Assembly: GCF_026210795.1 (NCBI RefSeq)
Contig: NC_089437.1
Coordinates: 1,612,001-1,676,000, forward strand
Origin: Rhizophagus irregularis
Taxonomy: Eukaryota > Glomeromycota > Glomeromycetes > Glomerales > Glomeraceae
Length of the DNA: 64,000 nucleotides
Direction: 5' to 3'
Shown: positions 18,812 through 36,305 of the stretch, piece after piece
How positions within the stretch are numbered: position 1 is the stretch's first letter
Layout: each line of letters begins with the position of its first letter
The notes under the pieces: generated by a model
What the model saw: only the letters and a program-made list of their open reading frames with translations
What the model was told of the DNA's origin: nothing
Database searches by the model: none
Position numbers and translations under genes: made by a program

Positions 18812-19361
18812 AAAAAGAACTAAAGAAAAAGTTAGATAAGTTGTTGAAAGAACAAGCAGGAGTGATAGATAGTGAAGAAAGTGGTGAAAAGAGTGATAAT
18901 GAAGAATCAGAAGAAGATAATACGGATGATTCAGAAAAGATTGGAGAAATATTAAGTCCAGAAGAATATGAAATATGGGACGGAAGTGATGAAGATTTTG
19001 AAGAAGAAGAATCTGAAAATGAAATCGAAAATGTTATAAATACAGGAGGTTTTGGTCCGAATCAAAATTCAGATTCGAATAGTTCATTAAATTTTAAAAA
19101 TTCTGACACAGAAAGTGAAATATCTGATTACAATTTACAAGAATTATTTCAAGAGAATATAGTAAATATGGCAAATGAAGCACAAATAAGAAGAATAATG
19201 GAGAATGCTATGGGATTGGCACCAAATGCATTAGATAATGCGTTAGGAGCAGGACAGACTTTGGCGGATAGGATTCAGACCGCAGGAATGGGGGGAATAG
19301 TAGGTATGCCAACTTTTAGTGGAAAAGAGGATGAAGATATTAATGATTGGATTAGACAATA
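18784..19361 (+). CDS. gag: Retrotransposon gag, 5' part (split by the 12-kb TIR element)
   Basis: The frame is open from 18784 with no ATG near its start, so it is probably reached by -1 frameshifting from the preceding ORF or by a one-base mutation. It has a very acidic region (SEESGEKSDNEESEEDNTDD), then QIRRIMENAMGLAPNALDN, and GMPTFSGKEDEDINDWIRQ, the start of a Ty3-type Gag capsid domain (F.G...D...W). The reading is cut after IRQ by the TIR element at 19362. It resumes at 31454 as YEIAFTVSG in the same frame once the element and one TSD are removed. Confidence 0.8.
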
Positions 19362-19799
19362 AGTAGTATGAAAACCCCAATTCTGGCTCACTCCCACCAT
19401 ATAATCTAAAATACTACCACTTTATATAATCTAATTACCACCATCATATAACTTAATTACCATCATATAATCCACCTACCACTTTTACTATAATTTAACT
19501 ACCACTTTATATAATCTAGTTACCACCATCATATAATTTTAATTACCACCATATAATCCACCTACCACTTTTCATATAATCTAGTTACCATCATATAGTT
19601 TTATTACCACCATACAACTCTATTACCACCACACAATCTGAAAAAATTAACCGAACAAGAAATAGGATTTCAAAGCCAACGGAGCCAAAAAAGGTAAGGA
19701 ATATTAACCCATCCAGGAAACCAGCCATGGAGTCAATAGAGCGGAATAGCAAGGCAAGCAATTACCCTTATACCGAGAAAAAATGTAATTGAATAAAAG
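19362..19799 (+). repeat. Left TIR of the 12-kb element (438 bp)
   Basis: It matches the right TIR along its full length as read by eye. It is largely built from irregular repeats of a ttaccaccatcatataatct-like unit (19390-19640), followed by a more unique inner part ending in ttgaataaaag. The repeats may bind the integrase or the replication machinery. Confidence 0.92.
19776..19799 (+). promoter_or_regulatory. Promoter-like motif before the 19824 gene
   Basis: AGAAAAAATGTAATTGAATA followed by AAAG lies 24 nt before the ATG at 19824. Near-identical motifs precede the ATGs of the genes at 21413 (+), 30336 (-) and 30976 (-). This copy and that of 30976 are the two TIR inner ends, so they are not independent. 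Confidence 0.6.
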
Positions 19800-19823
19800 A
19801 TTCACATATAAAAGACTTACAAG

Positions 19824-20495
19824 ATGTCACAATACAGACCATTACTAAGACGTATACTAGGCCAGTTTGAACTCAACATAGAAGAATGGGTAAAGGAAAT
19901 AATGTGGTATTTAGATATAGCATATTTAAAAGCTTTAGATTCCGAATTTAGCAAAGAAAGTATGTTAGTATCTGGATTAGAAGAGCTAGTAGAAATATTT
20001 GATGAGATGTTAGAAGGTGATGATATATGGATACATCCATCACTTTTATCACGAATAAGATATTCTATTCTACCAGATGAGATGGCAATATATGAAAGAT
20101 TTTCAGATATCATTAAGAACTTCTCAGAGGATAAAGAATTAGCATATGCATTATTAGACTTAGTAGAAATATTATCAAAAAAGAAACCTACAACATTCAA
20201 CATTATAGATTACAATATACAAAGAATATTCACGAATCCTAATGATGAATATAGAAATGAATTCAGCATCTACCATATTAAAGGAGATGAAGATATGGAC
20301 GAAGACACAGATGAAGACATAGATGAAGTAGAGCAGAATGAATTCAATGAATACTATCAGAATCTTGCACCGACCACCGAGAGTCAGCTGGATAGACTAA
20401 AAAATGAGTTGGCTATAACTCTATGTGACGAATGTCTTATGCCAACAAGAAGTCAGGAATGCGATTGCTGGATTTTACAAATAGAGGGTTTTTAG
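19824..20495 (+). CDS. Acidic protein of unknown function in the TIR element
   Basis: A 223-residue protein starting MSQYRPLLRRIL. The helical N-terminal two-thirds precede a strongly acidic linker (EDMDEDTDEDIDEVEQ). A short C-terminal cysteine cluster (CDECLMPTRSQECDC) may bind zinc. It is the first gene inside the left TIR, with the shared promoter-like motif just upstream. I recognise no family. By position it could be a terminal protein, regulator or accessory factor, but nothing in the sequence proves that. Confidence 0.7.
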   Translation: MSQYRPLLRRILGQFELNIEEWVKEIMWYLDIAYLKALDSEFSKESMLVSGLEELVEIFDEMLEGDDIWIHPSLLSRIRYSILPDEMAIYERFSDIIKNFSEDKELAYALLDLVEILSKKKPTTFNIIDYNIQRIFTNPNDEYRNEFSIYHIKGDEDMDEDTDEDIDEVEQNEFNEYYQNLAPTTESQLDRLKNELAITLCDECLMPTRSQECDCWILQIEGF

Positions 20496-20516
20496 TTCTC
20501 AGTGAAACCATTTTTT

Positions 20517-21308
20517 TTACCTCTCACAATCTGGAATAGGTGCATCACAAATAAAATCCCCAAAATCATTCGGATTAGAAAACAACTTCTGTAAGAACTT
20601 ATAAACCATATCAGCATCCAATTCAGTCTTAGTGCCAAATATATTAACCTTACCAGATTTAGGCCAGATATGTACCCGAATCTTTGAAGTAAAGATTATA
20701 GCAATTTTAGAATGAATATCACCTGCATCATTCTTAATATACTTTATCGGAAAGGGAAGAATCTCACGAATACCATCTATAGATTCTAAAGCATATGCTA
20801 AGGTAGAAAGATTAATAAACTTATCACCCCCAATATTAATCACAAATTTATAATTGCGCAGGAGAGCCTTATTTCCACCCACAAGTTTTACAGAAGAAAA
20901 TTCAGGTAGGGAACATTCAGAAAGGTAACGTAAGAAGATAGCAACAGGATCAAAAGACCCGAAAACTTGTATACTACCAGATTTAGGAAAATAACGAATA
21001 GTATGTACAGTATCAGCTAAGATGATAACAAACTCAATGCATGCATTAAAAGTGCTACCATCCCCTGTACGTCGCCGTCTATTTAATGGATTGTCAGGTG
21101 TACTTCGTCTGCATCGCCTCTCACCTTTTGGTTTAGACAAGTACTGTTCATAACCCTCAAAAGCTTTATGAATAAAGTTGCTATTAATGGCAATAACATC
21201 CTTAGTAGGTTCAAGCTTATGACCAAGCACGGTGTAATCAAGCCCTTCAACATTGATCTTAAATTCAGTAACAGTAAGAGATGGAGTAAGTTCACTAAAA
21301 GTAAGCAT
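20517..21308 (-). CDS. Possible TBP-like two-repeat protein
   Basis: A 263-residue protein starting MLTFSELTPSLTV. Its two halves look related: each has a beta-rich stretch ending in a 'sGkv.ifG' turn (IRYFPKSGSIQVFGSFDP and VHIWPKSGKVNIFGTKTELD) followed by a helix (AIFLRYL, MVYKFLQKLF). The second half also has FINLSTLAYALESI before it. This spacing resembles the TATA-binding-protein saddle repeat (INLE.iA..., ...iF.sGkiv.tGa...), which some DNA viruses encode. A basic arginine-rich insert (RRCRRSTPDNPLNRRRRTGD) interrupts repeat one. The fold assignment is inference from pattern only. Confidence 0.5.
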   Translation of the reverse strand: MLTFSELTPSLTVTEFKINVEGLDYTVLGHKLEPTKDVIAINSNFIHKAFEGYEQYLSKPKGERRCRRSTPDNPLNRRRRTGDGSTFNACIEFVIILADTVHTIRYFPKSGSIQVFGSFDPVAIFLRYLSECSLPEFSSVKLVGGNKALLRNYKFVINIGGDKFINLSTLAYALESIDGIREILPFPIKYIKNDAGDIHSKIAIIFTSKIRVHIWPKSGKVNIFGTKTELDADMVYKFLQKLFSNPNDFGDFICDAPIPDCER

Positions 21309-21359
21309 GTCTGGTTTTTTCTATTGATAGAAAAGAAATGTTCAAATTATTTTATCCTA

Positions 21360-21382
21360 AGAAAAAATCTAATTAAATAAAA
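21360..21382 (+). promoter_or_regulatory. Promoter-like motif before the 21413 F-box gene
   Basis: AGAAAAAATCTAATTAAATA followed by AAA lies 30 nt before ATG 21413. It differs at only two or three positions from the PolB and TIR copies. Confidence 0.6.
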
Positions 21383-21412
21383 CTTCTTCATCAATATCTC
21401 ATATGAGATACC

Positions 21413-21925
21413 ATGACAAACAATAGCTTACCTTTCGAACTTTTAGAAAAGATATTCAAAACTTCATATGAAGGTACTTACTCCCGTTGGCATTATCTTT
21501 GCAATTATGCATTAGTGTGTCGAAAATGGGCTGTAGTAGCAAACTCTCTCCTATGGGGTGAAACAGACCTTTATAACCTCTATAATATTAAGGAGTTCCA
21601 AATGTACAAACATCTCACAAAACCAGGAACAGTATGTGGAAAATATATCAGAAAGCTTAATATGGATGGAGTAAAATTATGGCCCATTTGTATTGTAAAA
21701 ATGCTACAAGCTTGTCCCAATATCCAGGAACTTAGCATAATAGATTATCAATACTATGGTGGAAAAGGTGACGTTAGAGATTTGCTAAGTGAAATCCTGC
21801 ATATATTACCAAACCTTCAAAAGCTAGATATCAGATATAGTCGATATTTTAAAAATAGAAATGCCATTGAAAAACTCATAGAAACCCGTAAAGACCTAGA
21901 AATCAGAGTAACATGGCAAATGTAA
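21413..21925 (+). CDS. F-box protein carried by the TIR element
   Basis: A 170-residue protein. The N-terminal F-box reads LPFELLEKIFKTSYEG, then LCNYALVCRKWAVVANSLLW, the classic LP.ell..I / l..c.lVcr.W pattern. A short leucine-rich tail follows (ACPNIQELSIIDYQYYGG, ILPNLQKLDIRYSRYF). F-box proteins recruit substrates to SCF ubiquitin ligases. This one is much shorter than the ~500-residue host copies (for example 46881-48349), so it looks like a captured host gene trimmed to the F-box and two LRRs. It has the element's own promoter-like motif. Confidence 0.8.
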   Translation: MTNNSLPFELLEKIFKTSYEGTYSRWHYLCNYALVCRKWAVVANSLLWGETDLYNLYNIKEFQMYKHLTKPGTVCGKYIRKLNMDGVKLWPICIVKMLQACPNIQELSIIDYQYYGGKGDVRDLLSEILHILPNLQKLDIRYSRYFKNRNAIEKLIETRKDLEIRVTWQM

Positions 21926-21942
21926 TATTTGTAAAGGCTAAT

Positions 21943-22060
21943 CACTACCGAAAAAATTTGGGCACTGCCCTGTTACTGCCCGTCACTGCCGAAAAAATTT
22001 GGGCACTGCCCTGTCACTGCCCGCCACTGCCCATCATTGCCGCAGAAGTTTGGGAAACAC
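21943..22060. repeat. 41-bp tandem duplication, locally GC-rich
   Basis: Two copies of a unit containing gaaaaaatttgggcactgcc, starting at 21950 and 21991, plus shorter cactgccc repeats. It lies between the F-box gene and the end of the Gag-Pro unit and overlaps the end of the zinc-finger frame. Confidence 0.7.
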
Positions 22061-22170
22061 ATGGATTTTTCCTAGCAAGATGACGCTTTAACTTAGAGGG
22101 AAAGTCAAAACTTGCTCCACATAGATGACAGGTTAATCTTCCTCGAGAGTGTGAATTTTTTTTAAGTCGA
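22014..22170 (-). CDS. C2HC zinc-finger frame after the retropepsin
   Basis: In the -1 frame relative to the protease, after an A8 tract (22154-22161), the minus strand reads RLTCHLCGASFDFPSKLKRH and continues LARKNPC, ending at a stop at 22014-22016. The CxxC...HLxRKxxC pattern is a zinc finger common in large DNA viruses and Polinton-like elements. It has no ATG of its own close by, so it is either a frameshifted C-terminal domain of the Gag-Pro polyprotein or a leftover of a separate gene. Confidence 0.5.
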
Positions 22171-23041
22171 TAGTATCCATCTGCAAGGAAGTCACGTTAG
22201 TTTTCCGTTTATGTAGAGAAATTGGAATGGTAATTTTTTTACGTGATGATAGAGGGATGGTCAGTTGTCGATTTTGGAAATCTAGAATGACATTAGCACG
22301 ATCAATCCAAGGTACACCTAGCAATAAAAAGTCCTTATCACTCTTAACAACCATGAAGTCATCTTCAATTTTTTTAGAGTTCTCCCCATCATATACAAGA
22401 ATACCAAGACCATATACTGTCCCAATAGTATCAGATTTTGTTGCAACACCACTAAGATCAGGAGCATTACTTCTATCAACGTCAAGATTTAGGCGCTTTA
22501 CAATATTGTTAGATATCAGAGAACTATCAGAACCAGTATCAAAAATTGTCGTAGGAATAACTAAAGATTTTTCACTCTCAGGTGCGACTACTTTGGTCTT
22601 AATAGTGACTACATCACTAGCAGACTTGCGGTTAACAATTCCAATACCCGCTATAGAAGACCATAAGTCATTATTACATATAACATCATCATTTTTACGG
22701 ATTAAATTTGCAGCCATACTATTAGTTACAACCGAAATCATAGGATGAAGGATAGATGTGAAAAGGTCCTTAACATTATCCCAAACTTTTTCACGTGTTT
22801 TTATCGAGGGTTCTCCTTTAAGCTGACTGAGTACTGGTTCTTTATAATTAATGAATTCAGCATTCAGAGCATTGTAAGCAGATATAACAGTCTCTTTTGG
22901 TACAGCATTAACGAAGGATTGAACCAGAAGCTTTAAGAGTTGTATAAAAACCTCAAAGATAATACGCTGCCTTTCAAGTTGTGATTTTTTCTTATCAGTA
23001 GGCTTTTTATCTACACGTTTCCTTTCTGTAGGCTTTTTTTT
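22133..23041 (-). CDS. pro: Retropepsin-like aspartic protease in the TIR element
   Basis: The frame is open for 302 codons after the A10 tract. The N-terminal ~100 residues are a lysine-rich helical linker (KKPTDKKKSQLERQRIIFEV). The protease core has the catalytic motif IPTTIFDTGSDSSLI, a flap-like region, and FLLLGVPWIDRANVILDF, typical of the hydrophobic psi-loop of retropepsins. It probably cleaves the Gag polyprotein as in retroelements. There is no start codon at the junction; it follows Gag in the +1 frame, as a retroelement gag-pro arrangement would. A conventional Polinton uses a cysteine protease instead. Confidence 0.85.
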   Translation of the reverse strand, partial: KKKPTERKRVDKKPTDKKKSQLERQRIIFEVFIQLLKLLVQSFVNAVPKETVISAYNALNAEFINYKEPVLSQLKGEPSIKTREKVWDNVKDLFTSILHPMISVVTNSMAANLIRKNDDVICNNDLWSSIAGIGIVNRKSASDVVTIKTKVVAPESEKSLVIPTTIFDTGSDSSLISNNIVKRLNLDVDRSNAPDLSGVATKSDTIGTVYGLGILVYDGENSKKIEDDFMVVKSDKDFLLLGVPWIDRANVILDFQNRQLTIPLSSRKKITIPISLHKRKTNVTSLQMDTIDLKKIHTLEED

Positions 23042-25343
23042 TTAATCCATAGCAGGCATGTCCAGAGTCTGAATCACTATCAGAGGAGTCAGAGGAGTCA
23101 GAGGCGTCAGAAGAGTTAGAGGAATCAGAGGAGTCATGTGCATAATTTGTTTTCCTCTTTCCCTTCTTAGATTTTGGACAGGAACTCTTAGTATGACCAG
23201 ATTTTCCACAACTTGAGCATTTCTTTGATTTCTTTGGTTTGCGTGTACCTGAACTTATACCAAATACCTGATTACCACGGTAAATATGGTCAGATGGTAA
23301 ATTTTTATTAAGTTCTGTATCAATAAATATTTCAAGATCACTAAGGGTTACTTTACTTATATCGATATCTCTTGGAAGACCTAATTTATATGCTAAAGCA
23401 AGTAATCTCTGAAATGATGTATCATTTTGAGGACTTGAAAATGGACTAGAAGATGGTACTGGTACTGCAGATGATTTAGCCGTAGTCATAGGAATTTTAG
23501 AATTTATAAGATTCTCAATATCCGCTAAAGTTGGACCCTGGTATGTAACTATAGGAGTAGGTGGCATATCTGTCCTGTATTTCTCAACTTCTTCCAATTT
23601 ATTCAGAATAGATGCAACTGAATTTTCTAAACCAATACGTCGCGCATCCAACTTATTTTCACTGGAAAGACCATTTAAGAACTGTTGCCGTACTAATTCA
23701 TTCTGATTTACCTCTGGAAGAGTTGGATATGCAAGTCTAACCATTCTTCGTAATTTAGAATAGAATCGGCTTACAGTATCACTACCCTGAACAATAGCAT
23801 TAAATGCAAGCTTAGACTTTTCAGATGTTATAGTAGGGAAGTAATGCTTAAAACGATATATTAATTGTCCAATACGTATTCCAGGAGCCACAATTGTACC
23901 TCCATTATTAGCATTAGGATTATTAACAGCTATATCAGTAGGACGACCCTCGACTATTGACCAATCTTCATCCCATACAGTATGATCAGGTATAAAATTA
24001 GCACCAGTAATAGTATTATCTGCAGCTGCTTGTCCATGTAATACACCAGCCCCTCCACGAAATTGATTCGCCGCTACAGCCTGTATAGCGGCATTATTCA
24101 AAGCATTAAAAGCAGCAAGAGTGGCCACACCAGTATTATCCAGAAGATTTACACATTCCCAATTTTTTCCTTTGATATGTGTTTCATACCAATCTCTAGC
24201 ATCATCTTCAAGTAAAGTTTCAAAGATCCCATGAATCCTAACACGAGTCCTAGCATTAGCAGCAGGATCAAGTCCAGCAGACTCACACCATTGCCTGAAT
24301 TCTTGAAGCCAAAGTTCTGGATCTTCACCAGATGCTCCTCTAAATTTTTTAGGTGCATATCCTGCCATTATAGGTTGTTGTATTACCGGAGGGTTATTTT
24401 GTAATGCTAGAATCTGTTGATTCAAATTATTGACCTGATTTTGCAAATTTTGACCATGATTGCGACAGTTTAAAAATTGCCCTCTCCATGCTCGAGCTTG
24501 CTGAATGATACCATTAGCCCGCCTTCTACTTCGCTCTGTTTCAGTATTATAGCGCTGTAATAATCTATGAGCATTTCTTCTACTCTCATCACGTTCTCTC
24601 TGGACATTAGCTAGTTGGATTTGACTGTTAGCAAATTGAGCCTGGATGTTAGCCAATTGGATCTGAGTATTTTGTGCAAGGCCTTCCCAATGTTGGCGAT
24701 GACGCACTTCATTTGCATATGCATCCTCATAGGTACGTCTTGTTCTTAGTATAGTAGCACGTGTATTATTAAGTTCTCGTCTAAGATATTCTTCACGGTT
24801 ATGTGCATCATCTAACAAACCTTCAAGTCTATCCTCCATATTATCTTGATCTTCTATAATATTTCGCAACTCATTAGCATATCGGATAATGGCATCAAGA
24901 CTATCATTTGCAGTGTTAAATAAATGATTTATATGAGGGTGTGCTGCTATAGTTGTATGATCAAGGTGAATACGAATACCAGCTACACTATTTGCTATAG
25001 TTGTCCGATTATTTAAGATTTCTGTAATAGGGTCAGGAGGAATTGCTGCCATGTTTTTCCGTTGTCTATTAGCAAGTTCTTTTATTCGATCTTTGAGTTG
25101 AATATTTAGAGTATCAACTTCAATCAGCTGACGTTCTAATGCTTGAAGCCCTTCCTCCTTTAGTGATGCCGTTTCTAATGCTTTCTTAAGCTTTGCACGC
25201 AACTCAGCATTTTTTTGCCTAAGTTCTTCTATCTCAGATTCATGACCCTCGATTACACCATACAGGTATTTTATATATTGCTCTTGTGATTGCAATGTAT
25301 GTGCAAGCTTTGTAATCTGTGTCTTTAACGATGTATCTTCCAT
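23007..25343 (-). CDS. gag: Gag-like capsid/nucleocapsid protein of the TIR element
   Basis: 778 residues from ATG 25343 (a GTG lies 12 nt upstream). The N-terminal ~330 residues are long coiled coil and Gln/Asn-rich helices. The central capsid-like domain begins APKKFRGASGEDPELWLQEF, continues with an inserted Ala/Asn-rich segment, and ends around SEKSKLAFNAIVQGSDTVSR, FYSKLRRMVRLAYP, QQFLNGL, the layout of Ty3-type Gag. A CCHC knuckle, CSSCGKSGHTKSSC (23178-23219), is followed by a Ser/Asp tail. The frame ends 9 codons after an A10 tract from which the protease frame is entered by +1. The 5' end overlaps the divergent integrase by 13 nt. Confidence 0.88.
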   Translation of the reverse strand: MEDTSLKTQITKLAHTLQSQEQYIKYLYGVIEGHESEIEELRQKNAELRAKLKKALETASLKEEGLQALERQLIEVDTLNIQLKDRIKELANRQRKNMAAIPPDPITEILNNRTTIANSVAGIRIHLDHTTIAAHPHINHLFNTANDSLDAIIRYANELRNIIEDQDNMEDRLEGLLDDAHNREEYLRRELNNTRATILRTRRTYEDAYANEVRHRQHWEGLAQNTQIQLANIQAQFANSQIQLANVQRERDESRRNAHRLLQRYNTETERSRRRANGIIQQARAWRGQFLNCRNHGQNLQNQVNNLNQQILALQNNPPVIQQPIMAGYAPKKFRGASGEDPELWLQEFRQWCESAGLDPAANARTRVRIHGIFETLLEDDARDWYETHIKGKNWECVNLLDNTGVATLAAFNALNNAAIQAVAANQFRGGAGVLHGQAAADNTITGANFIPDHTVWDEDWSIVEGRPTDIAVNNPNANNGGTIVAPGIRIGQLIYRFKHYFPTITSEKSKLAFNAIVQGSDTVSRFYSKLRRMVRLAYPTLPEVNQNELVRQQFLNGLSSENKLDARRIGLENSVASILNKLEEVEKYRTDMPPTPIVTYQGPTLADIENLINSKIPMTTAKSSAVPVPSSSPFSSPQNDTSFQRLLALAYKLGLPRDIDISKVTLSDLEIFIDTELNKNLPSDHIYRGNQVFGISSGTRKPKKSKKCSSCGKSGHTKSSCPKSKKGKRKTNYAHDSSDSSNSSDASDSSDSSDSDSDSGHACYGLKKKAYRKETCR
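23034..23043 (-). promoter_or_regulatory. A10 frameshift or slippage site between Gag and protease
   Basis: The minus strand reads gga tta then A10 gcc. Gag continues in frame 0 to a stop at 23007. The protease frame (aag cct aca gaa) opens immediately after a TAA that overlaps the tract. A +1 ribosomal shift or polymerase slippage would fuse the two. A simple one-base length error or mutation is the alternative. Confidence 0.6.
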
Positions 25344-26329
25344 TGCCAGTTCCACAGATTTTTATAGACCCTACATTTAATAAACAAATCGAACAAAATT
25401 ATATCCTTCAACAAATCTATTACCATCCATGTGGATATTATCGTACTCCTGAAAAACTTTGGGCTAAAGTGCAAGCTGAAGGCCATGATTTTAATATATC
25501 TGATATTACAGAGTGGTTGCATAAACAGGCTATATGGCAAATACACTCACCTATACCCAAGTATGTTCCACAGGTTTCTTTTAATAAGATTACTCGACCA
25601 AATATGTATCATCAAGCAGATATCTTATATATGCCCTATGATACTGTAGATAGAAAGCTGTATAAATACTGTCTGAATATTGTAGATGTTGCTAGCCGAT
25701 ATAAAGCTTCAGTACCTCTAGAAGATCGCAGCTCTGCACGTGTTGCTAAGGCATTTAAAAAGATTTATGGTAAAGCAGACTGCCCGCTTATTTGGCCAAG
25801 AGTTTTACAAGTAGATGGGGGATCAGAATTTAAGGATGAAGTTATCCGATTAATGGATGAAAAAGGTGTGCGTATTCGGGTGGGTACTACTCATAAGAGT
25901 CAGGCTATTGTTGAACGGTATAATCGAACTTTAGCAGAGAGACTTTTCAAAATACAGGATGCAAAGGAACTCCTTACAGAAGGTGTGAATACTGCCTGGG
26001 TTAAGAACCTTTCTGATATTGTGAATGAGCTAAATAATTCTAATACTCGTCTACTAGGTATGTCTCCAGTTGAGGCAATCCAGAAAGATCAAGTGTATGC
26101 ACTACCTTCAAAAATTTGGAAGGATAGACCTGTAGGTGCAGAAGAAATACGTTTACCAGCTGGTTCTCTTGTGAGATACTTACTTGATAACTCAGATTAC
26201 CAAGGTAGGAGACGTGCAACTGATCCAATATGGTCTACTAAAGTTTATACAATTGAATCTTCCACAGTTGTTGATGGGCAGCCGGTTATATATAGGTTAT
26301 CTGATGGACCTAAAAAAATATTTACTTGA
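25331..26329 (+). CDS. int: Polinton/retrovirus-type DDE integrase in the TIR element
   Basis: 332 residues from ATG 25331. An N-terminal helical region (YYHPCGYYRTPEKLWAKVQ) precedes the rve core. The catalytic triad is visible in MYHQADILYMPYD, RVLQVDGGSEFKDE and HKSQAIVERYNRTLAE. A C-terminal beta-barrel region (PAGSLVRYLLDNSDYQGRR) resembles the DNA-binding end of Maverick integrases. The first TGA (26327-26329) is followed in frame by EELLVVPSDTMLPPTHILY and a TAA at 26387-26389 that overlaps the convergent PolB stop by two bases, so the TGA is probably a nonsense mutation that trimmed 20 residues. No promoter space exists 5', as the start overlaps gag. Confidence 0.88.
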   Translation: MYLPLPVPQIFIDPTFNKQIEQNYILQQIYYHPCGYYRTPEKLWAKVQAEGHDFNISDITEWLHKQAIWQIHSPIPKYVPQVSFNKITRPNMYHQADILYMPYDTVDRKLYKYCLNIVDVASRYKASVPLEDRSSARVAKAFKKIYGKADCPLIWPRVLQVDGGSEFKDEVIRLMDEKGVRIRVGTTHKSQAIVERYNRTLAERLFKIQDAKELLTEGVNTAWVKNLSDIVNELNNSNTRLLGMSPVEAIQKDQVYALPSKIWKDRPVGAEEIRLPAGSLVRYLLDNSDYQGRRRATDPIWSTKVYTIESSTVVDGQPVIYRLSDGPKKIFT

Positions 26330-26385
26330 GAAGAATTATTAGTTGTGCCATCTGATACTATGCTGCCTCCTACTCATATATTATA

Positions 26386-29300
26386 TTAATTTTCAAGTTG
26401 TGGTATCCTATAATCTCCATGTGCATACATTGTGATATTATCTTGTGCAATCCATTTTTTATCATCCATAGGGGATAATCCTACCTTCGACATTTCTATA
26501 ACATTTATGGCATGTCTATCAGATCGGATTGCTCTAAAGGTGACTGTATCATTATGTTTAGGATCAAAGAGTGCCTTATTATACCGCTCATGGTGGAACT
26601 CTTTTTTAACTACCTTTGAGGGGACACCTTTAGCCTTACGGATACCATGTTTTGGATTGGTGGTCTCATCCCCTACCTTGAGAATGGAATACATTTTGGG
26701 ACGGAGGCCAATAAATTCTGCTATAACTGCTCCATTACATTCATCCTTAAATTTCCCTGGGATTTTCATATTTATGTCAGTCTTATCACCTAATGCTTTT
26801 CGTACAGGATGATCTTTAGGATAATCACTGAAGTCAAATTGGTCTGCCATATCTATGAGGTCTGCATTAATATCCTCAGTTTGGATTTGTACAAGAAGTG
26901 AGTCTGTGTCTGTATAACATAACTGGATTTTTTCACCATATCGTACTTTAAGAGTATCATAGTAGAATTGATACATACAGAGCTTCGAGAGGTCAAGCAC
27001 ACTCATACCCACATATGTTGGACGGTTAAGCATTACCTCCACTTTTCGTCGGTGGATTGCAACAAGATTTTCTGAGAATATTTTACGACCCTTGAATGCA
27101 GGATCTGAGGTAAGCTTTTTATATTTCTTGGGATGGGTTTGGGGTTGTACTACTGAGACACGTACACGTTTCCTGAGATTTTCCATAGTTTTACCAAATA
27201 CACTATTATTCATGAGTTTATAGAAGTCCTTCTCAAAATCATTCTTAGCCTTAGCACGTTCGGCGGTGTTAAATTCTATATATGGTTTCATCCATGGAGC
27301 CTGCTCGAATTTTATAGCTTCATAGACCTTCTTGATTACTAAGCCCTGGCTAACATAATACTGGAGATTTCTATAATGAACTACATATTCATCCTTATCA
27401 AATAGGTTAGGGATGAGCTTATCTGTGGGTGTGTATCGTTGTCCTGAGCGTGCTATTATTTCCTGCTGCTTTTTACTAAGCCATTCCTTCTTAACCTTCA
27501 TTCGTTCTGGTGCAAGGGGGTAATCTGTGTGTTGTGAATGGAGGACTTGAGGGTACTCCAGTTTAACTTTAAGGATATATCCTTCAGAAGAATTGTCTGG
27601 TATTTCATTACTTTCTATTTGCCTTTGAATGTTAGATAACTCGTTTTCCTCCTTTATCCAGTGGAAGTTACCTGTAGGTAAGTATTGCAACATGGCCCAT
27701 CCATATAGGTTATTTGCGTCTAAGTATAGAATAGATGACTTGGGCTTATCTGTGGTCCATTTACCTTCTCCCATACCTGGATTATTTGCACGAGCATATC
27801 GTTTACTTACCATAGAGATTCCACCACGTAATCCTTGTTCTACCATCATGTACATGTCCTGGTCAGTTATAAGATCCAATCTTTGCCCTGTCATTAAGAA
27901 TAGTGCATCCCATGCGAAGCCTGGTGTTGAATAATACCAGAGAGGATCTAACCCATATTTTTTCAAGGCCATTTCTCGGAAATTCTGAAATATATCGGCT
28001 AGTAGGAGGACGTCAGTTTTGAGATAAATGTCATGATAATCTTGCATTGTTTTACATCCTGCTTTTTCCCATACATACTGTGCATATTCATATTCTTTAT
28101 CACTAATGTGGGTTTCATTAAGTTTGCTATAAAATGCTCCTTTAGGTGGTAAACTAGTTTTCTCGAACTTTTTCCAGTCATCCATATATTCATACGGGTA
28201 GACACCTTTCTTAAGATAAATCTCGAGTAATTCAGGTGGTATTTGACTTCGTGTTATCTTAAAGTTTTCGGGATGTGCAAAGCATCTACCTGCATCAATT
28301 CGCCATAAGTGTTGTGAATTACTACATTCTTGTGCTCTACATTTTTCTGCACCTAGATTGGATGCTAATTTGTCGAGACTTGATTTCATGAATTGTAAGC
28401 TGTCTATAAATCGGAGGGAACCTAACTTGAATGCCATATACTTTTCCATGTTATAAGGGATAGGATCAATATCATCCTCACATTCCATTGCACCAATTCC
28501 TTGCATAATTATGTGTCCATCATATCCTGATAAATTGTGAAAGATTACTGGGATATGCATTTCACGAGGTTTTATGGATAAGTCAAGATTACATCCTCTA
28601 TGTGCTGCACCTCGATACCTTCCTGTAATATGGCAGTGGTCTCTTACTTTATTTCCATCTAAGGGGTTACGACATATCCAGCAGTTTATTGCATTATCAT
28701 AACTTGCTTGCTCTTGGGTTGTTAACGGCATCATTTCCATTGGGTTTCTGAATTCATTACGGATTGCTTCAGCCTCATTTAGCATTTCGATTACAAATTT
28801 TTGTGCTGCATTTTCTCCTGTAAATATCTTCTGTGATTCACTTACACCATCATATCTTACCTTAATATACGAGTATGAGCAGGGGATTTGCTCTTGTACT
28901 TTCTTGGTTTTCTTATCTTTGTCTTCATCTGTGGGTGGTATGTCCATTACTAGGGCTTCAAAGTCTGCAACAAAGTAATATGGAACTTGCATGCGGCGTT
29001 TCCAGTTTTTGAATTCATATATATCATTTCCTTTCTTTACTGATGGCATTCGGTCTGCTTGTGGGGTTTTCTTTAATCCTCGACATATTGCTACATGTTT
29101 GTCATGGATTTCTTGTTGATGTGTGAAGTGGGAGATACACCATCGGCAGACAAATGTTGCATGTCCATCTTTTGTACGTTTATTTACTAAACGGCTCATA
29201 TTCTTAATCCAGCAATAGTGCTGCTTTTCCCCGTTACTGATAAGTACTAAATCTATTATTTTACGGCCCTCTGCATCATCCCTATCAGTAACATATATTG

Positions 29301-30336
29301 GGCATAGGCGGTGGTCACGCCATTCACAGATGCAGAGGGCAATAGTTGGATTCTGTCGCTCAAATCTTCTTAGAATTACCTCATCAGCTTGTACTGGAAA
29401 TTCGATACCTTCAAAGTTTAACTCATTTACATACTCCTTATACTTGGAAATTCTTTCTGCGTTCTTTTCTACTGGATGTAATGCTGCTAGGATTGCCCAC
29501 TGGAAGCATTTGTCATCATCATTAGCTGGATTTACTACTCCCTTTTTCGTGGCAAGATCTTTTGGGAGTGGTATATGTCCTGCTCCTGTGGGTGGTTGGA
29601 ATTGCGAGATTTCTATAAATATTTTTTCTACACGATAGAATTCCCAACCTGATCCGTAATTTACATAGTCTTCTACTTTCTGCATGATTCTTGCTAATGC
29701 AAAGTTAAATGTACCATTAATATCTGTTGATGGTAGGATTGGCATATTGCGAGTTTTAAATGGTATGTTATATCTGTAGATATACTCTACTCCATCATCT
29801 TCACTAAAGTTACCATCTCCGAATAATCCCTCAAGGTAAGAATCTAAACGTCTTATTGTGGCAAATATTCCAATTCTTACTTTTATTGATCCCAATCGAT
29901 TTCTTTCATCCTGAAGAATATTCTGGATTGTTTGACTGTGTGCTGTAAGAAATGAAGCATAGTCATGCTCTCCAGGTGTTCCTATAGCAATATCAGCCGT
30001 AAAGTTTGAGTCCGTTAACTCCTTTCCAGGTGTTCATATAGCAATATCAGCCGTAAAGTTTGAGTCTGTTAACTCCTTTCCTATACGTACCTGATCACGA
30101 CGTTCAAAGACTACCTCATAATGTGGGTCTGGATCAATTTGCATCATGCGGGTTATCTCTTCATTGGTTACTGCCGCTTGTGCTTCACGGATTTGGCGGA
30201 TCTCATCCTCATATTCCTGCAATTTTGCATTTGAGCGGGGATATGGGATGGACTTGACAGGTACCTGCTTGAGTTCAGCTAGAACTGATCGGGTGACTTG
30301 TCTGTGTTGGGCACTTCTTGCTTGATGTGTTGACAT
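26386..30336 (-). CDS. polB: Protein-primed family-B DNA polymerase, interrupted by one TGA
   Basis: 1316 codons from ATG 30336, with one in-frame TGA at 30034-30036. Exonuclease motifs: FVADFEALV (Exo I, ~28960), IFHNLSGYDGH (Exo II), DYHDIYLKTDVLLLADIF (Exo III). Polymerase motifs: LYLDANNLYGWAM (motif A, ~27710), FYKLMNNSVFGKTMEN (motif B), CYTDTDSLLVQ (motif C, ~26910). CWICRNPLDGNKVRDHCHIT and RCFAHP-type cysteine motifs match Polinton and linear-plasmid polymerases. All catalytic residues are present. A 54-bp in-frame tandem duplication at 29972-30079 carries the stop, leaving a downstream 1169-codon frame that starts after the lesion. The upstream promoter-like motif supports ATG 30336. 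The natural start of a functional product in this copy is unclear. Confidence 0.92.
29972..30079 (-). repeat. 54-bp in-frame tandem duplication inside PolB
   Basis: Two 54-bp units (29972-30025 and 30026-30079) differ at two positions. One difference turns GGA (unit 1) into TGA (unit 2) on the coding strand. The duplication adds 18 codons without changing frame. Confidence 0.95.
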
Positions 30337-30358
30337 CTTGTAAACTTTTTATACTCCT

Positions 30359-30382
30359 CTTTTATTCAATTAGATTTTTTCT
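30359..30382 (-). promoter_or_regulatory. Promoter-like motif before PolB
   Basis: On the minus strand AGAAAAAATCTAATTGAATA followed by AAAG lies 22 nt before ATG 30336, with a TATAAAAA-like run between them. It lies outside the TIR, so it is independent of the TIR copies. Confidence 0.65.
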
Positions 30383-30538
30383 GAAAATAAAAATTAATTG
30401 TCTGCCTACCCTATGAGGGTAAAAAAAAGGGAGACAGATTAGTACTGTCTTCCTAAACTATTCGTCACCATCTGAGTCATCATCATCCGAGTCACCGAAC
30501 ACATCCTCATCCCGATGTATTCTCTATCCTTAAGTAAC

Positions 30539-30976
30539 TTATAGTTGTAAATTACAACGGCGAATAGCTTCTTTTACTATAATATGCTTTACTGCGGCAT
30601 TTGTTCTCTCTTTACAAGCCTTTTGATATGCCTCCCATTCAAGTTCACGGAGGATACCCTCCTCCTCCAATGATTGGCCAAGAGCATCATTTGCTTTTTC
30701 CTTCTTTTCTACTGCCCTGTCGTATACCTCCTCGGCTTCTTTATGCCGCTTCCAGAGTATTCGTTCAGCTTCGGCTCTCCAGATTGGGCTGACTTCTAGA
30801 AGATGTGTCCCGAAATTTCTACTTGGAATGTATTCCAGGATATGGCCCACAAGTTCAGGGATTACTGATACTGCGTACGGGGTTTGGTGGCTTTTTAGGA
30901 TTTCCCTATTGATAGCCATAAGATCGGAGACTGTGCAGCCGAAGATTGTTGCTAACTTTTCTGCGGTATATACCAT
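30539..30976 (-). CDS. F-box-like small protein of the TIR element
   Basis: A 145-residue protein. The N-terminus (MVYTAEKLATIFGCTVSDLM) precedes an F-box-like segment, VIPELVGHILEYIPSRNFGT then LLEVSPIWRAEAERILWKR. The C-terminal half is a charged helix (AEEVYDRAVEKKEKANDALG). It is divergent from the other F-box protein of the element and may have a different role. Its promoter-like motif is the inner end of the right TIR (31016-31039). Confidence 0.65.
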   Translation of the reverse strand: MVYTAEKLATIFGCTVSDLMAINREILKSHQTPYAVSVIPELVGHILEYIPSRNFGTHLLEVSPIWRAEAERILWKRHKEAEEVYDRAVEKKEKANDALGQSLEEEGILRELEWEAYQKACKERTNAAVKHIIVKEAIRRCNLQL

Positions 30977-31015
30977 GTTATGTACTATTTATCTGTATAG
31001 TTACTTGGTACCTAC

Positions 31016-31453
31016 CTTTTATTCAATTACATTTTTTCTCGGTATAAGGGTAATTGCTTGCCTTGCTATTCCGCTCTATTGACTCCATGGCTGGTTTCCT
31101 GGATGGGTTAATATTCCTTACCTTTTTTGGCTCCGTTGGCTTTGAAATCCTATTTCTTGTTCGGTTAATTTTTTCAGATTGTGTGGTGGTAATAGAGTTG
31201 TATGGTGGTAATAAAACTATATGATGGTAACTAGATTATATGAAAAGTGGTAGGTGGATTATATGGTGGTAATTAAAATTATATGATGGTGGTAACTAGA
31301 TTATATAAAGTGGTAGTTAAATTATAGTAAAAGTGGTAGGTGGATTATATGATGGTAATTAAGTTATATGATGGTGGTAATTAGATTATATAAAGTGGTA
31401 GTATTTTAGATTATATGGTGGGAGTGAGCCAGAATTGGGGTTTTCATACTACT
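31016..31453 (-). repeat. Right TIR of the 12-kb element (438 bp)
   Basis: The inverted copy of 19362-19799, same length, ending ...catactact followed by the caata target duplication. Its inner end (31016-31039) carries the promoter-like motif reading outward-to-inward toward the gene at 30976. Confidence 0.92.
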
Positions 31454-32887
31454 CAATATGAGATAGCATTTACAGTAAGTGGACGACCAGGAGGAAATGT
31501 TGGAGGAGGTGCATGTAGACAAAATAAGGCAAATATAGCCATAACTTGTTTGAGAGGAATTGCATTACAATGGTATAATGAGGAAAAAGAAAGGGTAGCA
31601 GCTAATTTAGTGAATTGGTGTGATTATAATGAGGATAGGAATTTAAAAAGAAGATTAATCGACAGATTTACTAGGAATGATGTTTAAAGAAGAAAGATGT
31701 TAGAATTAACAAGAATTAAACAGGGAACAAATGAAAGTGTTGAGGAATATACTAGAAGATTTAGGTCAATATTAAGAGTTGCAACTAGAGGTCATGCATT
31801 AGATGATTTATATCAAGTGAATTATTTTATTCAAGGGTTAGATGCCATGCTAGGTTATCATGTTAGGAGAAGTAATCTGACGAATCTGAATGATGCAGTT
31901 AACGAAGCAAAAAGAGAAGAGGAAGCAAAAGATGAATTGTTAATGAAAACAACAGGGTTGGATATGAAACGAGTAGGACAAGAGAAAAACATGAAAGAAA
32001 TTTTGAAAGAAGAGACAAATAAGTATAAAGGAATGAATCCAATTGCGAAAGAGTTACAAAATAAAGAAGTTAAAAGTGATGAATGGGATGAGTTAATTAA
32101 TGGAATGAAAAGGTTGGAAGCACATGTAATGCAGAGAAATGAAGCATATGTAATGCAAAGGAATGGGAATGATAGGAGACCGATCGGAAATAATAATGTC
32201 CAAAGAAATAATATGAACTGGGATAGAATGACTTGCTATACATGTGGAAGAAAAGGACATACTTCTAGAGTTTGTAGGGAAGGTCAAAGAAGATCATATG
32301 GAGGAAATAATAAAGGGTCATATAGCCAAAATAATCAAGTTAATTACTTTGATGAAGAATATTATGGTGAAGGATATAATGTGTATAATATGGAATATAA
32401 TGATGAATATGATGGATATAATGAGGGTGATGGATATGATAACTATAATAATGGATTCGATGGATACGAAGTGAATAACTATGGAGATGAGGAAAGATAC
32501 GATATGTTCCCAGTACCACCTAGAAAGAGTGAAAGAAATAAAGACAAGGTTATGAATGATGAAAGAGATAGAAGAAGAAATGCACAATGGCAAGGACAAC
32601 AGCAAAAAGCACAGGGGAATAATAAGAGGGGTTTTACAAAAGAACAATTACAGAAAGGATATGAAACTAGAAAGAATAATAATAGGTGTCACAATTGTGG
32701 ACAACAAGGACATTTTGCTAGAGAATGTACAAACGAGAAAGTGAAGTTAAATCGAAATATACCAAATGTTGGAGATTTTGATCCATTTGAGCAATTTGTA
32801 AATTCAAGCGTACCAATTAATTGGGGACAAATGATAAATGAAAGACCAGAAGTAAGGAAGAAATTATTAAATGGTTTGAGATATTGA
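31454..32887 (+). pseudogene. gag: Retrotransposon gag, 3' part, with one internal stop
   Basis: This continues the frame of 18784-19361. Capsid part: CLRGIALQWYNEEKERVAAN, then a TAA at 31685-31687 in frame (RNDV stop RRKMLEL), then LTRIKQGTNESVEEYTRRFR, the Ty3 Gag signature. Two CCHC knuckles are present, CYTCGRKGHTSRVC and CHNCGQQGHFAREC, flanking a Tyr/Asn/Gly-rich stretch. It ends in TGA CTA (32885-32890), after which the same frame continues into the protease. The TAA makes this copy defective. Confidence 0.85.
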
Positions 32888-33493
32888 CTACACTCGGGGG
32901 AATTGAAGAATATTAATCAGAAAGAAGAAAAATCACAAGCAACAAGATGTAATATAATAATTGAAGGAAAAATGATTAGAGCATTAGTTGATACAGGAGC
33001 AGGACCTTCAGTAATAACGAATGAACTGAGAAAAGAATTAAATATACCAATAACGAAGAAAAGTAATGTCGTATTAACAATAGCAGATGGAAATAACATA
33101 GCTTCATTAGGAAGAGTGGAAATTAGAATAGAAATTGATGAAAATTTAGAAATACCTTTAGAGTTCGAAGTAATTGACTCGAGAAGAAAAGATTTGATAT
33201 TAGGAACTGATTTATTAAGATATGGGATAATAAATATGAAAGAAGGTCTGTTAACAATAGAATGGGATAATGGAATATATGAAATACCAATTGATTTTAG
33301 AGGAAAGAAAAATGTTGAATTTGAGGAGTCAGAGAATAGGGGTGAATTTGATGAAGATCCAAAGAATATGGATGATATAGATAGTAATTCTAGTGAAGAG
33401 TCAGAGGGTGAAGATGAATATGAGGAGATGGAAAAAGAAGAATTGTTATCGATTGTAAAAACTGATAGAGAAAAGAGAGATGAGGAAAAATGA
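32888..33493 (+). CDS. pro: Retrotransposon aspartic protease, in frame after gag UGA
   Basis: It is in the same frame as gag, separated only by TGA. The core motif is MIRALVDTGAGPSVITNEL, and the later segment RRKDLILGTDLLRYGIINM is the retropepsin psi-loop (ILG.D.L). A very acidic tail follows (SNSSEESEGEDEYEEMEKEE). The frame ends in ATGA, where the next ORF (33490) starts in the -1 frame. Expression probably depends on UGA readthrough, since the first ATG lies well inside. Confidence 0.82.
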   Translation, partial: LHSGELKNINQKEEKSQATRCNIIIEGKMIRALVDTGAGPSVITNELRKELNIPITKKSNVVLTIADGNNIASLGRVEIRIEIDENLEIPLEFEVIDSRRKDLILGTDLLRYGIINMKEGLLTIEWDNGIYEIPIDFRGKKNVEFEESENRGEFDEDPKNMDDIDSNSSEESEGEDEYEEMEKEELLSIVKTDREKRDEEK

Positions 33494-33807
33494 ATGGTCA
33501 TGGTTTTCTGAATGAAGGAGAGACGGTAAAGATGCTAAATGAGAGCAAAGAAGAAAAATTTGAAGAGAAAACACATCTGGGAGAAATGAGCAATGAAGAG
33601 AGAACAGTATTTAAGGAATTGATAAGGAAATATGAGGATATATTTGAATATGATGAAGAGAAACTAGGGAGGATAAATACAGTTAAACATGAAATAATAA
33701 TCGGAGAAAATCAAGGACCAATAGCACAAAAGAGATATAAAGAAACTGATGAAAAAGGAAAGTTTATAAAGAAAGAAATTGAACAATTGTTAAGATGGGA
33801 AAGATAA
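33490..33807 (+). CDS. Pol N-terminal segment before RT
   Basis: A 105-residue ORF overlapping the protease stop (ATGA at 33490-33493). It contains FKELIRKYEDIFEYDEEKLG and HEIIIGENQGPIAQKRYKET, the region that precedes the Ty3 RT fingers. It ends IEQLLRWER stop. The RT frame overlaps it by 13 nt in the -1 frame, exactly where Ty3 Pol would continue LL..G.I..S.S.WASP. So either two frameshifts are used or one-base deletions have broken Pol. Confidence 0.7.
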   Translation: MNGHGFLNEGETVKMLNESKEEKFEEKTHLGEMSNEERTVFKELIRKYEDIFEYDEEKLGRINTVKHEIIIGENQGPIAQKRYKETDEKGKFIKKEIEQLLRWER

Positions 33808-35822: not shown

Positions 35823-35837
35823 AATTATATTTCCAAA

Positions 35838-36179
35838 ATGGTATTAGTAAATCGTTATGAGAATTGTTTTCTTACCTATCGAGTAAAGGTCGATAAGATA
35901 TGGAAAGTAACTATAAAAGAAGAAGGGAACAAAACAATTATCCGTTTAAGGATTGAAGAGGGAGAAAACTTCATACTAGTAGATGTACACATTATAATAA
36001 GACTAAAAGAGAAAAAGGTGAAATTGATTATGGAAGATAAAGACAATATGATAATAGAAGAAAGATTAATGGAAAAAGGATTAGGTTGGGTACGATCTAA
36101 ATTGATTATAGGAAATGAAAAATATATAAGAAGGATAGGAATACCAAGGATCAAAAATAAATCGAGAGATAGAAATTAA
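35838..36179 (+). CDS. Small beta-rich ORF between Pol and integrase
   Basis: A 113-residue protein (MVLVNRYENCFLTYRVKVDK), with alternating hydrophobic/charged residues, likely beta-rich, and a basic C-terminus (RIKNKSRDRN). It lies in the frame of RT-kinase, 15 nt after its TAG, and could be read by stop readthrough or reinitiation. No family recognised. Confidence 0.55.
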   Translation: MVLVNRYENCFLTYRVKVDKIWKVTIKEEGNKTIIRLRIEEGENFILVDVHIIIRLKEKKVKLIMEDKDNMIIEERLMEKGLGWVRSKLIIGNEKYIRRIGIPRIKNKSRDRN

Positions 36180-36305
36180 AAAATATATATGGAACAGTTA
36201 TCACGACGCTTTATTTTTACAACACCTTAATTTTTACAACACTTCAACCCTTTACAACATTTCAACCTTTTACAACCCTTTAGCTTTTAGAATTACAACA
36301 TAGAC
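36180..36305 (+). other. Spacer with ttacaac repeats before integrase
   Basis: Several irregular copies of a (t)ttacaacactt-like unit (36226-36290). No ORF crosses it, so the integrase is not simply fused to RT. It could hold a separate transcription or translation start. Confidence 0.4.

Follow-up and report, generated by a model that had tools for sequence, protein, structure and literature searches.

What do the capsid-less Polintons of the fungus Rhizophagus irregularis use instead of a capsid? This question is raised by a 12-kb element (19362-31453) in a 64,000-nucleotide stretch of contig NC_089437.1 (positions 1,612,001 to 1,676,000, forward strand; assembly GCF_026210795.1), which is called the window here. 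An initial annotation, made from the letters of the window, had read the element as a transposon with terminal inverted repeats (TIRs) that combines a family B DNA polymerase (PolB) and an integrase with a retroelement-like Gag and a retropepsin (Pro), and that has no reverse transcriptase (RT). Replication of Polintons (Mavericks) is generally attributed to protein priming, and their integration to an RVE integrase. Capsids of the Gag type belong, as far as is known, to elements whose RNA is copied into DNA; in Polinton-type elements the capsid is of the jelly-roll type or there is none.

The Polintons of Glomus intraradices (R. irregularis) are among those without a detectable major capsid protein (MCP), and the idea that some Polintons lost the MCP for life as a transposon is cited in the same paper (PMC7805220). 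Nine MCP-less Polintons also lacked PRO and ATPase, for which concerted loss was suggested (PMC4028283). The MCP-less elements of G. intraradices are probably the same as those analysed here, and the Gag-Pro module found in the latter is not mentioned in the available parts of these two papers. Two surveys of transposable elements in R. irregularis name Maverick merely as a class (PMC8647823, PMC11075540, available parts). As the initial annotation had supposed, no description of the gene set (PolB, integrase, Gag and Pro) was found among the literature listed here; the founding Polinton papers may mention it. From the results below, we consider it highly probable that Gag-Pro is a regular and selected module of Polinton-type elements, and it may be what the capsid-less Polintons of R. 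irregularis have instead.

Recurrence of Gag-Pro within copies of the element

Proteins encoded in the window matched R. irregularis DAOM 197198 records (up to 99%). The genome (146.7 Mb, 32 contigs) was searched with the TIR and the Gag of the window element, whose family is called family A. The best 40 of 102 TIR candidates and the best 58 of 466 Gag candidates were scored, the counts being lower bounds. At least 33 full-length TIR matches were obtained, 28 of which formed 14 opposite-strand pairs by eye, and Gag matches lay within 13 of these 14 complete pairs (counted by eye). Eleven other copies were fetched, of which two have one TIR that is incomplete; Gag was present in 10 of the 11, and at least part of Pro also in 10. 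The Gag-less copy is a 5.6-kb deletion derivative that is also devoid of the integrase and about two thirds of PolB, and the Pro-less copy, 9.6 kb long, keeps Gag residues 1-477. When two matches belonging to another family (family B, see below) were excluded, the remaining 63 of 65 Gag matches grouped into at least 40 loci across the genome. PolB was located within 5 kb at 36 or more of these 40 loci, the integrase within 2 kb at 35 or more, and both at 33 or more. The integrase and PolB matches of family A were hand-picked, which could only lower these Gag-centred counts; counts in the reverse direction (35 of 35 for the integrase, 36 of 39 for PolB) are biased by this choice and were set aside, and the family A PolB counts are lower bounds also in that the query was the C-terminal part of the PolB of family C (see below).

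The initial annotation had held that copies lacking Gag-Pro, or long terminal repeats (LTRs) bounding the Gag-Pro block, would speak for a chance nested insertion. Copies without Gag were not the rule, and no LTRs were found around Gag-Pro, the longest direct repeats in 17000-34000 being 59 nt and lying within the TIRs. Since Gag lies within nearly all complete TIR pairs and most Gag loci have both the integrase and PolB, Gag-Pro is not a nested insertion. On sequence comparison, the TIRs and target-site duplications (TSDs) demonstrate that the element moves as one unit, and Gag-Pro belongs to its regular gene set. The absence of an RT also held: tblastn with the RT of the flanking LTR element gave a match to the control flank and none in 28 fetched loci (L031-L058) or in the window element, and no RT or RNase H match was found among the nine element open reading frames (ORFs) with Pfam.

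The pooled dN/dS values were 0.16 for PolB, 0.21 for Pro and 0.40 for the integrase; each copy was compared with the window copy only, and the values are not independent. For Gag, dN/dS was recomputed without stretches below 90% identity, and its constraint is visible, though not strong, at this shallow depth (values are given in the Discussion). A copy on C28 (L038/L039, C28:895646-907595) was considered as a diverged subfamily and dropped, with 16 stops in Gag and dN/dS of 0.61-1.15 in eight of nine genes; it is decayed or mosaic and was retained in the copy counts. Its TIRs are 96-99% identical to the window TIRs, and dS was 0.05 for the integrase and 0.03 for the 100-aa ORF, as against 0.29-0.84 in the other seven genes. 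Because the integrase and the 100-aa ORF are nearly unchanged while the other genes are diverged and Gag has 16 stops, parts of this copy seem to differ in age.

Predicted folds of Gag and Pro and the junction between them

The initial annotation had described a 778-residue Gag-like protein with a CCHC knuckle, which agrees with the reading from the first ATG; from a GTG the protein has 782 aa. It contains CSSCGKSGHTKSSC, begins with a long coiled coil and has a lysine- and serine-rich C-terminus. Among the eight relatives in A1, zf-CCHC was matched in six, gag-asp_proteas in five and Retrotrans_gag in four (E up to 0.1). A PDB sequence search gave nothing useful for Gag-Pro. The predicted fold of the Pro homologue P0001 matched the Ddi1 retropepsin (best E 9e-6, prob 1.00), and that of the C-terminal domain (CTD) of the Gag capsid (CA) region matched retroviral CA-CTD. 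The models had a pLDDT of 49 for full-length Gag-Pro and 46 overall for CA, low outside the last helices, and the comparison used the protease and CA-CTD parts only. These models predict a CA-CTD-like fold for Gag and a retropepsin fold for Pro.

In the window copy, Pro lies in the +1 frame relative to Gag after an A10 run. In families A, B and C alike, Gag closes with ...KKK encoded by a run of A9 or A10 and reaches its stop 0-8 codons past the run, and Pro is in a different frame (+1 in the window, as noted, and -1 in families B and C). Runs of A of 9 nt or more occur four times in 27,536 sense bases of families A-C; three are the Gag/Pro junctions and the fourth is the end of Pro in family C. 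Across 11 family A junctions (10 fetched loci and the window), the run was A9 in 4, A10 in 6 and A8 in 1. The A9 copies have Gag-Pro in one continuous frame, and a 1075-aa open frame is present in several genome copies. The initial annotation, which had placed a DTGS protease in the +1 frame after A10, was correct for the window copy. A fixed programmed +1 frameshift in family A is unsupported because the run length differs between copies. We read the A9-A10 run as a putative slippage site that would set the ratio of Gag to Gag-Pro, by analogy with retroviral frameshifting; plain variation in run length or an assembly error in a single copy could also account for it.

Boundaries and gene content of the window element

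Features are collected in Table 1. In the repeat comparison of the window, the outer TIRs were identical (100% complementary over 438 bp), and the TIR length and the 5-bp TSD given in the initial annotation were both recovered. Of the copies whose two outer ends are both complete, 10 with the window included, nine have a TSD: 6 bp, the commonest length, in six, 5 bp in two and 7 bp in one; the tenth has none. A 6-bp TSD is a criterion for Polintons/Mavericks. The insertion site is inside the gag of a Ty3-like LTR element, and when the flanks were joined minus one TSD, the Gag reading continued uninterrupted across the site.

Table 1. Coordinates of the window element, its boundaries and the interrupted LTR element.
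Feature	Position in window	Strand	Basis or remark
Host LTR element, 5' part of interrupted gag	18841..19356	+	ORF and protein comparison
Target-site duplication CAATA, left	19357..19361	.	Read from flank sequence
Left TIR, 438 bp, begins AGTAGTATGAAAACCCC	19362..19799	+	Repeat comparison; at least 33 full-length genome matches
Acidic protein, 223 aa	19824..20495	+	ORF; pooled dN/dS 0.07, young copies
263-aa protein	20517..21308	-	TBP-like by eye only; no profile above cut-off
F-box-like protein, 170 aa	21413..21925	+	Pfam F-box-like 28.3 bits, cut-off 24.3
Retropepsin (Pro), DTGSDSS	22133..22741	-	Motif; homologue fold match; Pfam below cut-off
Gag: coiled coil, CA-like domain, CCHC knuckle	23007..25355	-	Motif, predicted fold; Pfam below cut-off
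A10 run at Gag/Pro frame change	23034..23043	-	Sequence
RVE integrase, Polinton type	25319..26329	+	Pfam rve, motifs, comparison
Family B DNA polymerase, Polinton type, 1169 aa	26386..29895	-	Motifs, homologues
Small ORF, 100 aa, conserved	30034..30336	-	ORF, copy comparison
Small ORF, 145 aa	30539..30976	-	Highest dN and dS of nine genes, young copies
Right TIR, 438 bp	31016..31453	-	Repeat comparison
Target-site duplication CAATA, right	31454..31458	.	Read from flank sequence
Host LTR element remainder: gag, protease, RT-RNase H, integrase ORF	31459..37493	+	Profiles; integrase by eye

PolB carries the ExoI-III and Pol A, B and C motifs (read by eye), as had been reported from the sequence. 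It is 48-53% identical to proteins of Bradybaena and Elysia (land snails, sea slugs), snakes and a sea anemone. PF03175 gave no match to it at E 1, many of its homologues carry PF03175, and the PDB sequence search gave no match. It contains an Endonuclease VII-like insert (Endonuclease_7 match below cut-off) and a Cys...His pair that by eye fits the vOTU domain described for polinton protein-primed PolBs (pPolBs; PMC11071308, available part).

The integrase matched rve at 36.3 bits (cut-off 32.6), in line with the DDE integrase first proposed; its triad is D101, D166 and E199, with a D166-E199 spacing of 32 residues instead of the canonical 35. Compared with a Polinton-like integrase it is 48% identical, and compared with that of the flanking LTR element 24%. 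By eye it has no N-terminal zinc finger, the absence of which is a criterion for the Polinton-type RVE integrase (PMC2836005, available part), and P0248 and P0192 are, we infer, Polinton integrases. The frames of Gag and the integrase are arranged head to head and overlap at the start codons (25319-25355), so each transcript must begin within the other gene.

The capsid-related genes that the initial annotation had not seen in the element were not detected here either. No profile of an FtsK/HerA ATPase, Ulp1 protease or capsid was matched in nine ORFs with Pfam and six ORFs with PHROGs, no Walker A-like motif was present in any element frame of 60 residues or more, and no unassigned ORF was capsid-sized, the largest being the 263-aa protein. 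The F-box-like gene was presumably captured from the host.

Two further observations concern the surroundings of these genes. A 54-bp tandem duplication (94%) at 29968-30075 overlaps the end of the 100-aa ORF. In the flanking LTR element, the RT-RNase H ORF (33795-35822) runs on into a P-loop region, an unusual fusion; this region gave weak NB-ARC/NACHT matches below cut-off and is nucleotide-kinase-like by eye.

Related modules in further families

Gag-Pro with an integrase recurred in three further families, B, C and D. A separate element, ca. 11.85 kb long and with 802-bp TIRs that are 97.6% identical, constitutes family C (C16, L057/L055). This minimal element encodes a 1376-aa pPolB (open frame), Gag and Pro; its integrase is oriented head to head with Gag, and a pair of small ORFs lies between the integrase and the TIR. 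Identity to the window element is 35% for PolB, 47% for the integrase, 34% for Pro and 34% for Gag, the Gag match being mainly in the coiled coil.

In family B (C8, L051-L053; a further copy is C14, L054/L059) the integrase is likewise head to head with Gag, which is 35% identical to the window Gag over 705 columns, and the family also encodes Pro plus a coiled-coil protein with a likely membrane segment. Its polymerase is a PF00136 protein whose best PDB match was 8ywg (E 3e-200), which we take to be the African swine fever virus polymerase, as against 5e-21 or worse for polymerase delta, and its ATPase matched Pox_A32 above cut-off. Between the family B copies, dN/dS was 0.13 for Gag (70 synonymous and 34 other changes), 0.20 for the ATPase, 0.47 for the integrase and 0.64 for the coiled-coil protein. 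The L054/L059 copy is 95.6% identical to L051 over 6,660 bases (integrase-Gag-Pro) but 65-70% in the polymerase, which points to module exchange or gene conversion. In family D (C5, L056) the Gag, with a CCHC knuckle, is spread over two frames; the family also has an integrase, an A32-type ATPase 42% identical to that of family B and a protease-like ORF similar to the family C protease (E 3e-8). The family D Gag showed no significant similarity to family A Gag in a weak comparison covering one frame. No TIRs were found at the ends of family B or in the 10-kb piece of family D.

An integrase lay within 2.5 kb of 29 of the 40 best A32 matches genome-wide (integrase matches hand-picked). A second large group of A32-type ATPases, at 36-39% identity and with many 411-aa frames, occurs on many contigs, away from the loci with an integrase. 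The two families with an A32-type ATPase, B and D, are also those with a DPG protease.

In family B, the asfarvirus-like polymerase and the A32-type ATPase (L051:1-2667, L052:379-1155; C8:1662500-1673555) adjoin Gag-Pro-integrase. A polymerase of R. irregularis branches within Asfarviridae (PMC5294986), and asfarvirus-like polB was found on multiple chromosomes in all strains, with infections suggested (PMC10640383), according to the available parts of these papers. Judging from one locus and its C14 relative, it may be that mobile elements carry the asfarvirus-like polB copies of R. irregularis, in which case not every copy would have to stem from infection by a giant virus.

Beyond this genome, Gag homologues were sought among proteins of 0.55-1.75 times the query length, with 7,999 candidates scored, a range in which long gag-pol polyproteins could not appear. 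RT-less Gag-Pro proteins ending soon after the protease were found at 48-56% identity (P0016, P0022 and P0023, metagenome proteins among them), and another in Paraglomus brasilianum (P0024) at 53% over 34% of the query; Diversispora epigaea P0029 was a distant Gag match (26%, E 9e-4). The longest contig listed for Gag-Pro P0016 measures 6,578 bases, as does that listed for integrase P0162, which suggests that the two may be neighbours, and metagenome protein P0195 is a DTG protease fused to an integrase of the same type. Viral contigs gave no relatives with P0001 or P0031 as query and one distant PolB locus (L060), whose ORFs resemble, by eye only, a capsid-bearing Polinton-like virus.

Discussion

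The element resembles Polintons/Mavericks in its PolB with exonuclease and polymerase motifs, its RVE integrase, its long TIRs and its mostly 6-bp TSD. It differs from them in having Gag-Pro in place of the jelly-roll major and minor capsid proteins, the Ulp1-like protease and the FtsK-type ATPase, and in its length of 12 kb as compared to 15-40 kb for most Polintons (PMC7805220). A double jelly-roll (DJR) MCP or penton, which the element does not have, is also missing from some accepted Polintons (PMC7805220, PMC4028283). With Ty3/Metaviridae and retroviruses it shares the predicted CA-CTD fold of Gag, the CCHC knuckle, the retropepsin and the placement of Gag and Pro in different frames; unlike them it is without LTRs, no RT was found, and it has a DNA polymerase instead and a Polinton-like integrase. 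The initial annotation had derived the capsid and maturation module from a Ty3-like retroelement, which may have been the donor. Ginger/TDD elements likewise have a Gypsy-like integrase in a TIR DNA transposon, but they are cut-and-paste elements with a 4-5 bp TSD, and neither PolB nor Gag is mentioned as theirs in the available part of PMC2836005. In bidnavirids, the DJR capsid of a pPolB lineage was swapped for an unrelated capsid protein, which in the available part of PMC11071308 is not stated to be a retroviral Gag.

It was hypothesised that the element works as described below. Retroelement-type Gag-Pro would occupy the place of the jelly-roll capsid, cysteine protease and ATPase genes of capsid-bearing Polintons. 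PolB would copy the linear element DNA via protein priming, and the integrase would insert it. Slippage at the A9-A10 run would yield Gag in excess over Gag-Pro, Gag multimers would coat or enclose the protein-capped linear DNA, and cleavage of Gag by Pro would bring about particle maturation. Gag CA domains form lattices, and retropepsins mature them; assembly of Gag around the element DNA is what we infer here. Many nuclei lie in a common cytoplasm in the hyphae of the fungus, and such a particle could move copies from one nucleus to another or, when hyphae fuse, from one hypha to the next. The A32-type ATPase of families B and D suits the loading of DNA. Taken as a whole, this chain, in which a self-replicating transposon of Polinton type has a Gag shell around its DNA, is given an even chance.

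Several observations weigh against this hypothesis. The Pfam matches to the window Gag and Pro were below cut-offs, the remainder of CA, including a long insertion, was poorly modelled, the CA model had no Foldseek match at E 0.001 (best 0.07), and helical bundles can reach by chance a Z score like that of the CA-CTD match. Gag had a pooled dN/dS of 0.47 among young family A copies, with 0.79 and 1.19 in single copies and an undefined value in one (0 synonymous and 2 other changes); in family B, the value for Pro was 0.75 on 14 changes, and Gag is without the CCHC knuckle. At the DTG site, the proteases of families B and D read DPG (L051:5357-6058, L056:1354-2049), and they may, judging by this motif, be inactive; in families A and C no packaging ATPase could be recognised. 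Both points also argue against one uniform scheme.

How far could Gag-Pro be explained otherwise? The insertion by chance of a retrotransposon fragment into one DNA transposon, for which homology to retroelement proteins and nothing further can be cited, has a negligible probability given the same gene order at dozens of loci, the lack of LTRs around Gag-Pro and the lack of a detected RT, and for family A it is refuted by recurrence. Gag-Pro might also be passive cargo, captured once and without a role like the F-box-like gene, which shows that the elements do carry cargo; the Gag values in young family A copies and the Pro value in family B, neither of them low, would suit this. We nevertheless regard it as very improbable, since Gag and Pro are recognisably homologous in families A, B and C, family D has a CCHC Gag and a protease-like ORF, the minimal family C element holds little beyond Gag-Pro, and dN/dS amounts to 0.13 in the Gag of family B and to a pooled 0.21 in the Pro of family A. 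Slightly less improbable, although still unlikely, is an action against or on LTR retrotransposons, in which Gag-Pro would either poison the particles of these retrotransposons or open them to use by the element. The window copy does sit within a Ty3-like gag, and Ty1 is known to be restricted by a CA-derived fragment, but the element Gag is barely similar to the Gag of the flanking LTR element (E 0.01).

A role of Gag-Pro at the core of the element but without a shell deserves more weight, doubtful as we hold it to be. Gag would then be a DNA-binding chaperone, a condensate former or a tether to chromatin or for nuclear import of the complex of PolB, DNA and integrase, and Pro would process Gag. 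A CA-CTD-like lattice domain together with a shared slippage-like junction is typical of particle-forming retroelements, which speaks for a shell. On the other side, families A and C are without a packaging ATPase, the long coiled coil and the lysine- and serine-rich C-terminus of Gag suit a scaffold, the starts of Gag and integrase overlap head to head, P0195 fuses a protease to an integrase, and retroviral Gag proteins have been linked to the choice of integration site (PMC8547959, available part).

Returning to the shell hypothesis, Gag-Pro-integrase is paired with at least two unrelated DNA-copying machineries, namely a Polinton pPolB in families A and C and an asfarvirus-like PolB with an A32-type ATPase in family B; owing to this pairing, it would be a capsid module that crosses between element types. 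It is conceivable, with a probability somewhat short of even, that DNA elements of Glomeromycotina, perhaps DNA viruses, have a retropepsin-matured shell of Gag lattice loaded with double-stranded, protein-capped DNA, and that the module passed into DNA-copying elements from RNA-copying ones and spread thereafter. A recurrent and selected Gag-Pro module in DNA-copying elements would break the division of capsids between RNA- and DNA-copying elements, and the element is a natural test case for the packaging of double-stranded DNA by Gag. The finding bears on the reading of asfarvirus-like polB as a sign of infection, in that one placeable gene adjoins a Gag-Pro-integrase module, and Gag-Pro offers an answer to the question of what the capsid-less Polintons of R. 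irregularis use instead.

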